In this document: piece after piece, positions 42,622 through 49,528 of the stretch
How the letters are laid out: every line of letters begins with the position of its first letter
How positions within the stretch are numbered: position 1 is the stretch's first letter
From: Trichocoleus desertorum ATA4-8-CV12
GTDB lineage: Bacteria; Cyanobacteriota; Cyanobacteriia; FACHB-46
NCBI GenBank assembly: GCA_019358975.1
Contig: JAHHIL010000020.1
Span: forward strand, 1-64,000
Length of the DNA: 64,000 nt
Reading direction: 5' to 3'
Position numbers and translations under genes: made by a program
The notes under the pieces: generated by a model
Seen by the model: the letters and a program-made list of their open reading frames with translations, nothing else
What the model was told of the DNA's origin: nothing
Databases searched by the model: none

Positions 42622-44136
42622 TTAACTCTGAGTTTGAGGGGCACGACCAAACAACTCGGTCATGCTTTTGAGGCGATCGCGGACTTCTGGAGTCAAAGCA
42701 TCTGCCTCGTATCGCCATGTCCAGTTGCCTGCATTGTCGCTGGGATCATTCATGCGGCCCTCATTCCCCAAGCCCAAAACGTCTTGCAGTTGAATGATGG
42801 CTTGATTAGAGACAGAGGCTAGAGCAAGGCGAGTAAAGTCCCAATTGATCCCCTCTGGGCTCAAACAACCAACGTAGTTAATAACCATGTCGCGATCGCT
42901 GGGTGAGAGGCGATTAAACCAGCCCACAATGGTTTCGTTGTCGTGGGTGCCAGGATAAACCACGCTATTAGGCAAATATCTGAAGGGCAAAAAGTTTTTG
43001 TCCCCCATGTCACCAAAAGCGAATTGCAGAATTTTCATGCTGGGGAAACCAAAGCGATCGCGCAAGGCATCCACTTCTGGCGTGATCACACCTAAGTCTT
43101 CTGCCAGGACAGGCAGTTGGCCGAACTGCTGCTGGAGGGTCTCAAACAGAGCTTCCCCTGGCGCTTCAATCCACTCCCCATTCATCGCGGTGGTTTCACC
43201 TTGCTGCACTGCCCAATAAGCTTGGAAGCCTCGGAAGTGGTCAACCCGAACCATATCCACGTAGTCGAACAGAGCTTGGAACCGCTGCACCCACCACTTG
43301 AACCCAGTTTGCTGCAACCGCTCCCAGTTATATACGGGGTTGCCCCAAAGTTGTCCCGTTTCACTGAAGTAATCGGGTGGGACTCCCGCCATCAACGCAG
43401 GCTCTCCGGTTTCAGGGTCGAGGCAAAAGTTTTCTGGGTTACCCCAGACATCGGCGCTATCCTGAGACACGTAAATAGAAATATCACCAATTACTTTGAT
43501 CCCGCGTAAGTTAGCGTATTTCCTCAGCGCTGACCATTGCTGGAAAAACTCAAATTGCAGGAATTTGTGCAGCCAAATTTCGGCTTGGAGTTTGTCTTGC
43601 CACTGGGCGATCGCGTCTGGTTGACGTTTGGAGATCGCGGGTTCCCAAGTGGGCCAACTGGTATCTTGAAAGGCCTCTTTCAATGCCATGAACAAGGCGT
43701 AATCGTCTAGCCAGTAAGCTGTGCCTTTGCAAAACCCTTCAAATTCTTTTTGCTGTACGGCTGAAGCGTTCGTCTGAAAATTCTGCCAAGCTTTTTGCAA
43801 CAGAGGCATTTTGATCTGCCGCACTTTGCCAAAGTCTACGGATGGGGGCATCTCTGGCAGTTCGGTTAAGTCTGTTTTTGCGAGGAGTCCTTTATCCCGC
43901 AGAACTTCCAGGCTAATCAGCAGATGGTTACCTGCCATTGAAGAGTAGGACGACAGGTAAGGAGAATTCCAAGGCTCGCCCGTCGGCCCTAGGGGTAGAA
44001 TTTGCCAAAGTTGTTGGGCGCTGTCGGCTAAGAAGTCGATGAAGCGGTAGGCTTCTAGGCCTAAGTCACCAATCCCAAATCGGCTGGGAAATGAGGTGGG
44101 GTGCAGTAAGATGCCGCTAGCTCTGGGAAAGGGCAT
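42622..44136 (-). CDS. malQ: 4-alpha-glucanotransferase (first of two)
   Basis: MalQ (amylomaltase, GH77) transfers glucan chains between maltodextrins in glycogen turnover. The ATG at 44136 (MPFPRASGILLHPTS) is preferred over a TTG two codons upstream and gives 504 residues. The GH77 features are present: VRVDHFRGF with the nucleophile Asp, LAEDLGVI with the general acid Glu, and GTHDNETIVGW with the third acidic residue. A second, similar malQ lies at 48026-49528 on the same strand. The pair is separated by about 4 kb of other genes. Confidence 0.93.
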   Translation of the reverse strand: MPFPRASGILLHPTSFPSRFGIGDLGLEAYRFIDFLADSAQQLWQILPLGPTGEPWNSPYLSSYSSMAGNHLLISLEVLRDKGLLAKTDLTELPEMPPSVDFGKVRQIKMPLLQKAWQNFQTNASAVQQKEFEGFCKGTAYWLDDYALFMALKEAFQDTSWPTWEPAISKRQPDAIAQWQDKLQAEIWLHKFLQFEFFQQWSALRKYANLRGIKVIGDISIYVSQDSADVWGNPENFCLDPETGEPALMAGVPPDYFSETGQLWGNPVYNWERLQQTGFKWWVQRFQALFDYVDMVRVDHFRGFQAYWAVQQGETTAMNGEWIEAPGEALFETLQQQFGQLPVLAEDLGVITPEVDALRDRFGFPSMKILQFAFGDMGDKNFLPFRYLPNSVVYPGTHDNETIVGWFNRLSPSDRDMVINYVGCLSPEGINWDFTRLALASVSNQAIIQLQDVLGLGNEGRMNDPSDNAGNWTWRYEADALTPEVRDRLKSMTELFGRAPQTQS

Positions 44137-44745
44137 AGACAATCTGAAAAATAAACAGCAAACGTCCTGAATTTAGCACCCAGTCATTTCGGCTGCATCA
44201 ATCCTGGGTTTTGCTCTTTGGGCAATTATGTCTATCTAAGGTTGGATAGCTAGAGGGATTTTTAATTAAAGCCACATAGAAGCGATCACCCTCTCACGGC
44301 AGGAGAAAAGCGATTAACTGAGGATCACCTTTCCTCGCTAAGTTCTAAGAGATCCTGATGTCATCGTGTATGCAGGGTTATTTTATTGTAGAAAGAGCAT
44401 AACTCGTTCAGTTTGGTTGGCAAGTTGGCGGTTTGCCTGAGCACTTGAGGTAAAGCCCAACTAATGGGCCACAGTGATGAAGAAATTGCGCACTATCGAC
44501 CAACTCGCTGGCGTGTTCTGTCCTCATTGCCGCGTCTCATCCTCACAGCGAAACTCAGGCACTGTTTGCAGTAATTCGACTAAAGACATGACTCTTCCTC
44601 AACCCTATCTTTAGTTTGCTTTTTCTATATCCATATGAAGCAGTCCTGCCGCTGTCGAGAGGAGAATCACTGGGCGATCCTGAAGAGGTGGTAGCGATCG
44701 CAATATGAAGTTAGCTATCTTGGAAGCTTAAATAGGGATTACGTA
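44137..44745. other. 609-base intergenic region, possible transposase remnant
   Basis: No intact gene is seen. On the minus strand near 44589-44527 a short frame begins MSLVELLQTVPEFRCEDETRQ and stops; its first dozen residues resemble the start of ISAs1-type transposases, and readable fragments continue in other frames toward 44400. This is a weak resemblance. A HIP1 site lies near 44694, about 50 bases before the next gene. Confidence 0.35.
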
Positions 44746-44988
44746 ATGAGCAATGTCAAGCTAGGTCGATATGAACACTTTAAAGGCAAGACTTACGAGG
44801 TAATGGGAGTTGGCAAGCACTCGGAAACTGAAGAAGAACTTGTGATTTATCGACGGGTTGGTGATGATCAATTGTGGCTAAGGCCCGTAAGCATGTTTCA
44901 GGAGCATGTTCAGCATGAAGGACGCTCAGTTCCCCGCTTCGAATATGTAGAGAACCGCATGCAAGGTCGATTTGAACGTGAGAACTGA
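44746..44988 (+). CDS. DUF1653 family protein
   Basis: The 80-residue protein matches DUF1653: GRYEHFKGKTYEVMGVGKHSETEEELVIYR, then LWLRPVSMFQEHV. The family is widespread and uncharacterised and appears to be a compact beta-barrel domain. A strong terminator follows. It is isolated between a long intergenic region and the AT-rich island. Confidence 0.92.
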   Translation: MSNVKLGRYEHFKGKTYEVMGVGKHSETEEELVIYRRVGDDQLWLRPVSMFQEHVQHEGRSVPRFEYVENRMQGRFEREN

Positions 44989-45046: not shown

Positions 45047-45083
45047 AACAAAACCTCAGCGATTAACTTGCTGAGGTTTTGTT
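45047..45083. terminator. Strong rho-independent terminator after the DUF1653 gene (bidirectional)
   Basis: AACAAAACCTCAGC (45047-45060) pairs perfectly with the mirror half at 45070-45083 around a nine-base loop. The stem carries A and T runs on its outer sides, so it can act for the DUF1653 gene on the plus strand and for the small gene at 45104 on the minus strand. Confidence 0.9.
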
Positions 45084-45103: not shown

Positions 45104-45331
45104 TCAGTCTTTTTGCTTCTGATTTTTGATGAGTGCTTGAGGCAGTCGCAGATGACCTCGTCTTGCTTTTCTCCTCAACAGAAGGGCTGGGCTAGCAAGA
45201 ACAGTCCATAGATCCTGCTTCTTACTTTGCTCACGAACCTCCTTGTATATAAATGTCTCAGCACTTCCATCAGTCTTTCTACCAATTAAAATAAAGCTTC
45301 TTAGAGGAATGTCAGGTAGCTTATCAGACAT
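45104..45331 (-). CDS. Small protein of unknown function, overlapping the GAF-like gene
   Basis: This 75-residue protein starts at ATG 45331, inside the last codons of the upstream GAF-like gene (eight-base overlap, ATGTCTGA), which indicates translational coupling. The N-terminal half (LRSFILIGRKTDGSAETFIYKEV) looks like a small beta structure; a short hydrophobic patch (WTVLASPALLL) follows and the C-terminus is basic (RRKARRGHLRLPQ). I recognise no family. It is followed by the terminator at 45047-45083, so the two genes form a unit. Confidence 0.65.
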   Translation of the reverse strand: MSDKLPDIPLRSFILIGRKTDGSAETFIYKEVREQSKKQDLWTVLASPALLLRRKARRGHLRLPQALIKNQKQKD

Positions 45332-46139
45332 TGTTTTTCATTCTCCACAAGAGCCTTATAATTTTTCTTCTATCAATAATCCAACTCAAAACCAATTGAT
45401 GGACATTATTGGTTTTCATTTTTTCTAAATCTAGAATTTCATCTGTATCAACTGCGAGTAGCCCTAAAATAGAGTTTTCTTGAAATGCTGCGACTACCAT
45501 AATTGCCTTAATCCCTGTATCTATTAAGTTTTGGTTAACGGAAGATAAAGTTACGTAGGTACTAGGGAATTTAGACCTATTGGATGTATCAACAAACTCA
45601 ACGTGGTACTCACTGGCTTTAAGAAAAGTATACCCTATACCTCCTTCTTTCAAAATAAAGCTTGCTTCTAATTCTCTCTTATCAATATTTTTGGTCTTGC
45701 ATACCATTTGGAGTCTCCATCTAAGTACACCAGTTCTAACGGGTAAAAAGATAGACAATCGAACTTTGCCAGTTAGATTAAACTTTTTTGTGATCCTCGT
45801 GCCTAATTCATTCAGTTCATTTTCTATTGCTGGCACAATAATATCTTTAGTTGTTTCTGATAACTCTTCGGCTTCTTTTCTTTTGTTTAGGAAATCGAGA
45901 ATATAAGAAATTAAACTTGGAAATACAATAATAAAAACTGATATTTTCCAAGATGCATCTGGACTTAATCTAGAAAACCAATTTTTTGAAACTAGAGGAT
46001 TTGAATCTACAAAAAACGACTGCGTATCCGAAAAATTGGCAACAACTATTGCTATTAATGAAAGAATAAAGGTTAGAATCTGTAGAGGTTTTAGCTTTCG
46101 ATAGCGATAATTAATTTCATAACTTATTATTTTCCACAG
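45324..46139 (-). CDS. Membrane-anchored GAF-like domain protein with unusual start or 5' frameshift
   Basis: The frame is open from a stop at 46176-46178 down to TGA at 45324-45326. It encodes a basic N-terminus (YRYRKLKPLQ), two hydrophobic segments (LTFILSLIAIVVA; ISVFIIVFPSLISYIL) separated by a Ser-rich loop, a charged linker, and a domain of about 150 residues like a GAF fold (GIGYTFLKASE; IKAIMVVAAFQENSILGLLAVDTDE). The first standard start codon in this frame is a GTG at 45836, beyond both membrane segments. The coordinates given use a CTG at 46139. An ATG at 46143 with GAAGGG just upstream is one base out of frame (MPVENNKL then stop), so a +1 frameshift or sequencing slip there would restore a normal gene. 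The ligand and role are unknown. Confidence 0.6.
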   Translation of the reverse strand: MWKIISYEINYRYRKLKPLQILTFILSLIAIVVANFSDTQSFFVDSNPLVSKNWFSRLSPDASWKISVFIIVFPSLISYILDFLNKRKEAEELSETTKDIIVPAIENELNELGTRITKKFNLTGKVRLSIFLPVRTGVLRWRLQMVCKTKNIDKRELEASFILKEGGIGYTFLKASEYHVEFVDTSNRSKFPSTYVTLSSVNQNLIDTGIKAIMVVAAFQENSILGLLAVDTDEILDLEKMKTNNVHQLVLSWIIDRRKIIRLLWRMKNNV

Positions 46140-46244
46140 GCATATCCCTTCAATTCTTAAAGTTGAAAAAAAATGTCATAAATCCTAGTAAATACCAAAA
46201 TGTGGCTTTGCCTTAAGCCCAAGAATTCAGCGCTTTAATACTGT

Positions 46245-48025: not shown

Positions 48026-49528
48026 CTAATCTCCTTGACGACCATAGATGTAAACCAGCTCTTTGAGGCGGTTGCTGTAGTCTTCCGTGAGTGCCTCGCC
48101 TCGGAAGCGCCAAGCCCAGTTATTTTCTGCGGTACCAGGAGCATTCATCCGAGCATCAGTCCCTAAGCTGAATACGTCCTGAATCGGAATAATCGCTTGA
48201 TTCGCCACCGAACTCATCGTCAAACGAATCATGTCCCAGGCAATTCCATCAGGCCCAGTACAGCCCAAGTAGCGGTGCAGGCGATCGCGTTCATAATCTG
48301 GAGCTTGCTGATACCAACCCACAGTCGTATCGTTATCATGGGTGCCCGTATAGATGACGCTATTAGCTTCTACATTGAACGGCAGATAGGTATTCTTGGC
48401 ATCACTGCCAAAGGCAAAGTGCAGGATCTTCATGCCAGGGAAGCCAAAATGGTCTCTGAGGTCCAACACAGCCTGATCGATCGAGCCTAAGTCCTCAGCG
48501 ATGATGGGCAAGCTGCCCAACTGATCCCGAATCGTTTCGAACAGCTTATAGCCCGGAGCCTTAATCCACTCCCCGTTAATTGCCGTCTCTTCACCCGCAG
48601 GCACTGACCAGTAAGCTTCCAAGCCCCGGAAGTGGTCAATCCGAATCATATCTACATGGGCCAGATTTTCCCGGACTCGCTCCACCCACCAAGCAAAGTT
48701 AGTGGATTCCAGATGGCTCCAGTTGTAGAGCGGATTGCCCCAAAGCTGTCCCGTTTCCGAAAAATAATCCGGTGGTACGCCTGCAACTTCTGTCGGCTGT
48801 CCAGTTTCTGAGTCTAGTTGAAATACTTCTGGATTGCCCCAAACGTCCGAGCTATTGTGGGCGACATAAATGGGGATATCCCCAATAATCCGGATGTTTT
48901 GAGCATTACTGTAAGTTTTTAGCTCTCGCCACTGCCGGAAGAACTCGAACTGCAAGAATTTTTGGAAGTAGACTTCATCGGCTAGCTTGTCTCGCCATAG
49001 ATCCAAAGCTTCTGGCTTCCGCAACCGCAGTTCTTCGGGCCATTCCACCCAGCTCCCGCCTTCCTGAGCGTCCAGCAGCGCCATAAATAAGGCGTAGTCT
49101 TCTAGCCAACTGGCTTTGCCGCGACAAAATCCTTCAAATTCTGTTTGCTGAATCGGGCTGGCTTTCTGCTTGAAATTCTCGCAAGCTTGCCGCAGCAAAG
49201 GCATCTTCCAGGCAATCACTCGATCAAAGTCAATCTTGTCTAGCGGGAAATCGGGGACATCGCGCAGATCTTCTTCGCTGAGGAAACCATTGTCTCTCAA
49301 GATGTCAGGGCTAATCAGCAACGGATTCCCTGCCATCGTGGAGAAGCTCATGTAGGGAGAGTTGCCATAACCCGTAGAGCCAAGGGGCAGTATTTGCCAC
49401 AGCCGTTGTTCACTATGAGCTAGAAAATCAATAAACTGATGCGCTTCCAGCCCTAGATCACCAATGCCATAACGACCGGGTAGACTCGTTGGATGTAACA
49501 GGATACCACTGGCACGGGGAAAGGGCAT
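48026..49528 (-). CDS. malQ: 4-alpha-glucanotransferase (second of two)
   Basis: The 500-residue GH77 enzyme starts at ATG 49528 (MPFPRASGILLHPTSLPGRYG) and has IRIDHFRGLEAYW with the nucleophile Asp, IAEDLGSI with the acid/base Glu, and GTHDNDTTVGW. It is clearly paralogous to the gene at 42622-44136, with aligned motifs throughout, but diverged. Both copies look intact and catalytic. Confidence 0.93.
   Translation of the reverse strand: MPFPRASGILLHPTSLPGRYGIGDLGLEAHQFIDFLAHSEQRLWQILPLGSTGYGNSPYMSFSTMAGNPLLISPDILRDNGFLSEEDLRDVPDFPLDKIDFDRVIAWKMPLLRQACENFKQKASPIQQTEFEGFCRGKASWLEDYALFMALLDAQEGGSWVEWPEELRLRKPEALDLWRDKLADEVYFQKFLQFEFFRQWRELKTYSNAQNIRIIGDIPIYVAHNSSDVWGNPEVFQLDSETGQPTEVAGVPPDYFSETGQLWGNPLYNWSHLESTNFAWWVERVRENLAHVDMIRIDHFRGLEAYWSVPAGEETAINGEWIKAPGYKLFETIRDQLGSLPIIAEDLGSIDQAVLDLRDHFGFPGMKILHFAFGSDAKNTYLPFNVEANSVIYTGTHDNDTTVGWYQQAPDYERDRLHRYLGCTGPDGIAWDMIRLTMSSVANQAIIPIQDVFSLGTDARMNAPGTAENNWAWRFRGEALTEDYSNRLKELVYIYGRQGD

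Follow-up and report, generated by a model that had tools for sequence, protein, structure and literature searches.

A probable horizontally acquired and decaying copy of an apparently unnamed cyanobacterial cassette encoding a membrane GAF protein and a small hairpin protein

The described systems closest to the locus analysed here include the GAF domains (PF01590), as solved in type II free methionine-R-sulfoxide reductase (fRMsr; 4mmn), NreA, the cAMP-GAF of Lcd1 and the GAF of PDE6, and the membrane protein Csx23, whose cytosolic domain has a novel fold of its own for binding cA4 and acts together with a type III CRISPR system (PMC11014256). In the papers searched we found no described unit of GAF domain, membrane segment and small protein that fits this locus, and no mention of DUF2584 (PF10763), the family represented upstream in most of the related loci. 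In this report we focused on a gene that seems to lack a start codon, in a 64,000-nt stretch of Trichocoleus desertorum ATA4-8-CV12 DNA that we call the window (Table 1). A gene of this kind can be explained by comparing its flanking DNA, since the loss of the directly upstream gene took the start codon along, and the comparison yields a small cyanobacterial cassette, apparently unnamed, whose sensor-partner pair is open to testing. We consider it probable that the window holds a horizontally acquired copy of this cassette with an eroded upstream end, where a DUF2584 remnant is left and the GAF start has been lost, most likely in early decay.

Table 1. Coordinates of the cassette features and their surroundings in the window
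Feature	Position	Strand	Remarks
Acquired segment	44179..46616	(.)	stands in place of the GNAT gene of two genus-mates
Strong hairpin, 14-bp stem	45047..45083	(.)	separates the small gene from the convergent DUF1653 gene; probable terminator
Small 75-aa partner gene	45104..45331	(-)	conserved DGSA-T--Y core, predicted beta-hairpin, basic tail; 8-nt overlap with GAF gene
2TM-GAF open frame	45324..46175	(-)	283 codons between stops; a start at CTG 46139 would give 271 aa
Eroded GAF start region	46108..46165	(-)	relative's ATG lies in a stretch apparently deleted or altered in the window; ATT 46154 and CTG 46139 are in-frame near-cognate candidates
Out-of-frame ATG	46141..46143	(-)	matching ATG out of frame within the L011 coding sequence (TTATGCCTC)
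DUF2584 remnant, 3' third	46166..46239	(-)	truncated, several indels; DNA alignment to L011:7904-7986, shuffles p <=0.004
RHH-like ORF, 72 aa	46245..46463	(-)	weak Pfam matches; abuts the truncated DUF2584 remnant

The frame in question encodes two membrane helices, a long helix and a GAF domain. Re-reading the sequence, we agree with an earlier sequence-only reading that it stays open with no ATG, GTG or TTG before GTG 45836, and that its stop overlaps the start of the small gene; the chance of so many open codons at the frame's own base composition is about 4e-11. The two hydrophobic helices that this reading had placed before the GAF part appear as two peaks of hydrophobicity, both N-terminal to it. 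The GAF assignment also stands: in the AlphaFold2 model (mean pLDDT 77) the GAF part lies mostly at 79-93 and the membrane part is low, and the top Foldseek matches are GAF-containing proteins (probability 1.00, E down to 6e-5), though the Pfam GAF models all fall below cut-off, the best score, which belongs to a relative, being 13.2 bits against 22.4, with no match for the window protein. Among the 26 GAF-region positions that are invariant in six other aligned proteins, 24 are kept and the other two show conservative changes.

Relatives of the GAF protein occur at ten other cyanobacterial loci, with 31-46% identity to the window, a count that leaves out the window itself, comprises nine loci with a full-length GAF gene and includes three near-identical copies sharing one context. 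Four further carriers are found among 390 genomes of the window's class, three of them Pseudanabaena, Snowella and FACHB-502 (GTDB contig scan); the contig scan added relatives in Tolypothrix campylonemoides and Nostoc sp. FACHB-110, and the family search added the three near-identical copies, all in one genus, and one internally deleted copy in another. No relative was found in two genus-mates of the window's organism, no homologue in plasmids, phages or viral contigs, and a sequence search of solved structures gave no match. The alignment of the relatives reveals a GD..SFF motif between the two helices, only one nearly invariant cysteine (C159 of the frame) and a C-terminal WRMKNN tail, which persists in the internally deleted copy too. 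In that copy (L078:1501-1821, G404), TM2 and nearly the whole GAF domain are missing in frame and TM1, the loop and the tail are left; DUF2584 and the small gene are intact. After the window copy, this in-frame loss is the second indication of a cassette prone to erosion.

As defined here, the DUF2584-2TM/GAF-small cassette has a 2TM-GAF gene with an adjacent small DGSA gene, both present in the window, and an intact DUF2584 gene directly upstream. At nine of the ten other loci, a small gene with the DGSA-T--Y core adjoins the GAF gene, a conserved pairing that bears out the proposal of an apparently undescribed unit of these two genes. The exception is FACHB-502, where the small gene's place is taken by a NACHT NTPase gene (L014:8800-10542) that overlaps the GAF gene's end. 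At this NACHT-carrying locus, XisH/XisI-like genes lie divergently upstream. Directly upstream of the GAF gene, a small DUF2584 gene is found in eight of the ten loci, the spacing ranging between an 11-nt overlap and a 7-nt gap, so that the native form in most loci is a three-gene cassette and not the two-gene unit originally proposed; the window has no intact DUF2584 gene there, just an indel-ridden remnant. The usual order is DUF2584, the 2TM-GAF protein and the small hairpin protein, mostly separated by gaps or overlaps of a few bases. Against the Pfam model PF10763, one upstream gene that we tested scored above the cut-off and another just below. Of 340 genomes, 47 have DUF2584; both genus-mates are among them, the window's genome is not, and DUF2584 thus often occurs without the cassette; among the few neighbourhoods that could be read, it was not seen as the first gene of a wider modular system. 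Neither the window GAF protein nor the small protein has a family in Pfam, NCBIfam, PHROGs or PADLOC, and the cassette family, which is real, apparently has no name so far.

The model of the small protein is weak overall (pTM 0.31) but confident for a beta-hairpin at residues 12-32, whose turn holds the DGSA. Four confident matches to it were found in 390 genomes, all adjoining a GAF gene. Downstream, the DNA hairpin folds at -24.1 kcal/mol (z -4.6), in keeping with the view that a strong terminator closes the unit; it lies between convergent genes and may therefore terminate both, and a simple terminator scan missed it because of its 9-nt loop. The convergent gene (DUF1653, 44746-44988), with which the cassette has this hairpin in common, is itself within the acquired segment.

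The segment replaces what the genus-mates carry at this place. Homologous flanks end at 44178 and 46617, between which both genus-mates have a GNAT gene and the window has about 2.4 kb instead, and the GC content of the GAF gene is 0.30-0.36 versus about 0.52 in the flanks. Inside the segment, a short repeat at 44549-44650 has an 86% identical copy elsewhere in the genome (C81), is partly matched in a genus-mate (C37), and is possibly a small mobile repeat. Two paralogous 4-alpha-glucanotransferase (MalQ-like) genes (42622-44142 and 48026-49528) flank the region, as in the genus-mates.

As for what an intact cassette might do, the two N-terminal helices would anchor the GAF protein in the membrane and the long helix would mediate its pairing, the cytosolic GAF domain would bind a small ligand, and a signal would pass via the WRMKNN tail to the small protein. 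We infer a sensor-and-effector role of the pair, with 2TM-GAF as a membrane-anchored ligand sensor that would act through the small protein. Alternatively, the intact cassette might be an anti-phage membrane effector and not a physiological sensor, a tentative reading that we hold to be possible but not favoured. Its layout of membrane helices and a ligand-binding domain is that of Csx23, it is patchily distributed and horizontally spread, and in addition to the relative with the NACHT NTPase gene, others adjoin type I restriction, nSTAND1-WD40, integrase, OLD-like or toxin-antitoxin-like genes. However, such neighbours are plentiful in cyanobacteria generally, three copies lie directly behind an aconitase-like gene, and PADLOC has no match for the window GAF or small protein, its one hit being a chance-level match to the small protein of a relative. 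We think it unlikely that the intact cassette represents a new kind of ligand-gated membrane module, for defence or stress, whose GAF domain would gate the two helices and whose control partner would be the hairpin protein or, in one relative, the NACHT NTPase.

The missing start codon is another matter, on which the DNA upstream of the frame proved informative. Window positions 46239-46108 align continuously at the DNA level with 7904-8059 of L011, one of the related loci, from the final third of DUF2584 over the junction into the opening codons of the GAF gene. For the part upstream of the GAF frame alone, the alignment to L011 has p 0.004 (500 shuffles); in a narrower test of this part none of 1000 shuffles reached the score, nor did any of 1000 for the score summed over six cassette relatives. 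Two relatives without DUF2584 gave no alignment signal to the window's upstream DNA, and with a long upstream query and relatives tested singly, none but L011 was significant. Translated searches for the remnant failed because of its frameshifts (tblastn gave nothing usable, an HMM 0.7 bits), and the DNA alignment alone revealed it. The first reading had missed this remnant, which ends beside the unrelated RHH-like ORF, and likewise the three-gene organisation of most homologues. That ORF has several divergent relatives in the window's own and other cyanobacterial genomes.

This comparison points to erosion from the upstream side, in which DUF2584 has been cut down to a 3' remnant full of indels and the GAF start codon, which lay in that stretch as well, has gone too; the GAF body and the small gene are still intact. 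In the N-terminal half of the gene, second codon positions change least, a pattern of protein-level constraint, and the faster decay that we looked for in this half was not seen, its divergence not being unusual. An intact GAF body and this N-terminal constraint imply that the erosion is recent relative to the divergence of the family. What exactly became of the start codon differs with the alignment chosen, as the first dozen residues vary among relatives. Even so, early decay rather than an exotic start is the most likely explanation, and among the earlier suggestions it is that of a recently broken gene which fits best. The out-of-frame ATG 46143 does have GAAGGG 2 nt upstream, as had been observed, but its counterpart is an out-of-frame ATG inside the L011 coding sequence (TTATGCCTC vs ATATGCCTG), and it is hence incidental and falls as a candidate original start.

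It could be that the remaining frame, being intact, is translated even now. That the gene is live and uses a non-standard start, either CTG 46139 with GAAGGG or ATT 46154, seems to us rather unlikely, in spite of an intact frame with its conserved residues kept. CTG 46139 is in frame, and the Shine-Dalgarno-like GAAGGG lies at a workable spacing with a pairing of -5.4 kcal/mol, but roughly one random site in four pairs nearly as well, all relatives use ATG, and both candidate codons lie within the eroded stretch. At best, these two codons would support weak translation of the window copy. A small 5' sequencing or assembly error hiding an ordinary start is very unlikely: the assembly is a draft of 90 contigs and a T8 homopolymer (46173-46166) follows closely on ATG 46179, itself not in the GAF frame, but several separate indels distinguish the window from L011, and DUF2584 codons account for both this ATG and the T tract. 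The same correspondence speaks against the idea of a gene that is phase variable at the T8 tract. Least probable of all is a 170-aa soluble GAF protein starting at GTG 45836, which is the first standard in-frame start but has weak upstream pairing (-1.0 kcal/mol) and would leave the constraint on the N-terminal half unexplained, and homologues that begin there without membrane segments, which would have spoken for it, are not what we found: in all relatives an ATG precedes both helices, which every complete relative includes (the internally deleted copy keeps the first), so that the helices are part of the protein and this GTG is not the ancestral start.

The presumably decaying copy in the window and its intact relatives can be set against known systems. 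At eight related loci, the gene upstream is a member of DUF2584 or is similar to it; DUF2584 genes are often solitary, and the window keeps a fragment of one. The cassette GAF shares its predicted fold with the GAF domains named above; it differs from them in that the window protein lies below the Pfam cut-off and that two membrane helices, joined by a conserved loop, carry the domain. It also lacks the set of conserved catalytic cysteines of free methionine-R-sulfoxide reductase, its single nearly invariant cysteine giving no sign of a multi-cysteine fRMsr site. With Csx23 it has in common N-terminal membrane helices followed by a cytosolic C-terminal domain, which binds a ligand in Csx23 and is predicted to do so here, but the cA4-binding domain of Csx23 has a novel fold and that of the cassette a GAF fold, so that the likeness is one of layout only (PMC11014256).
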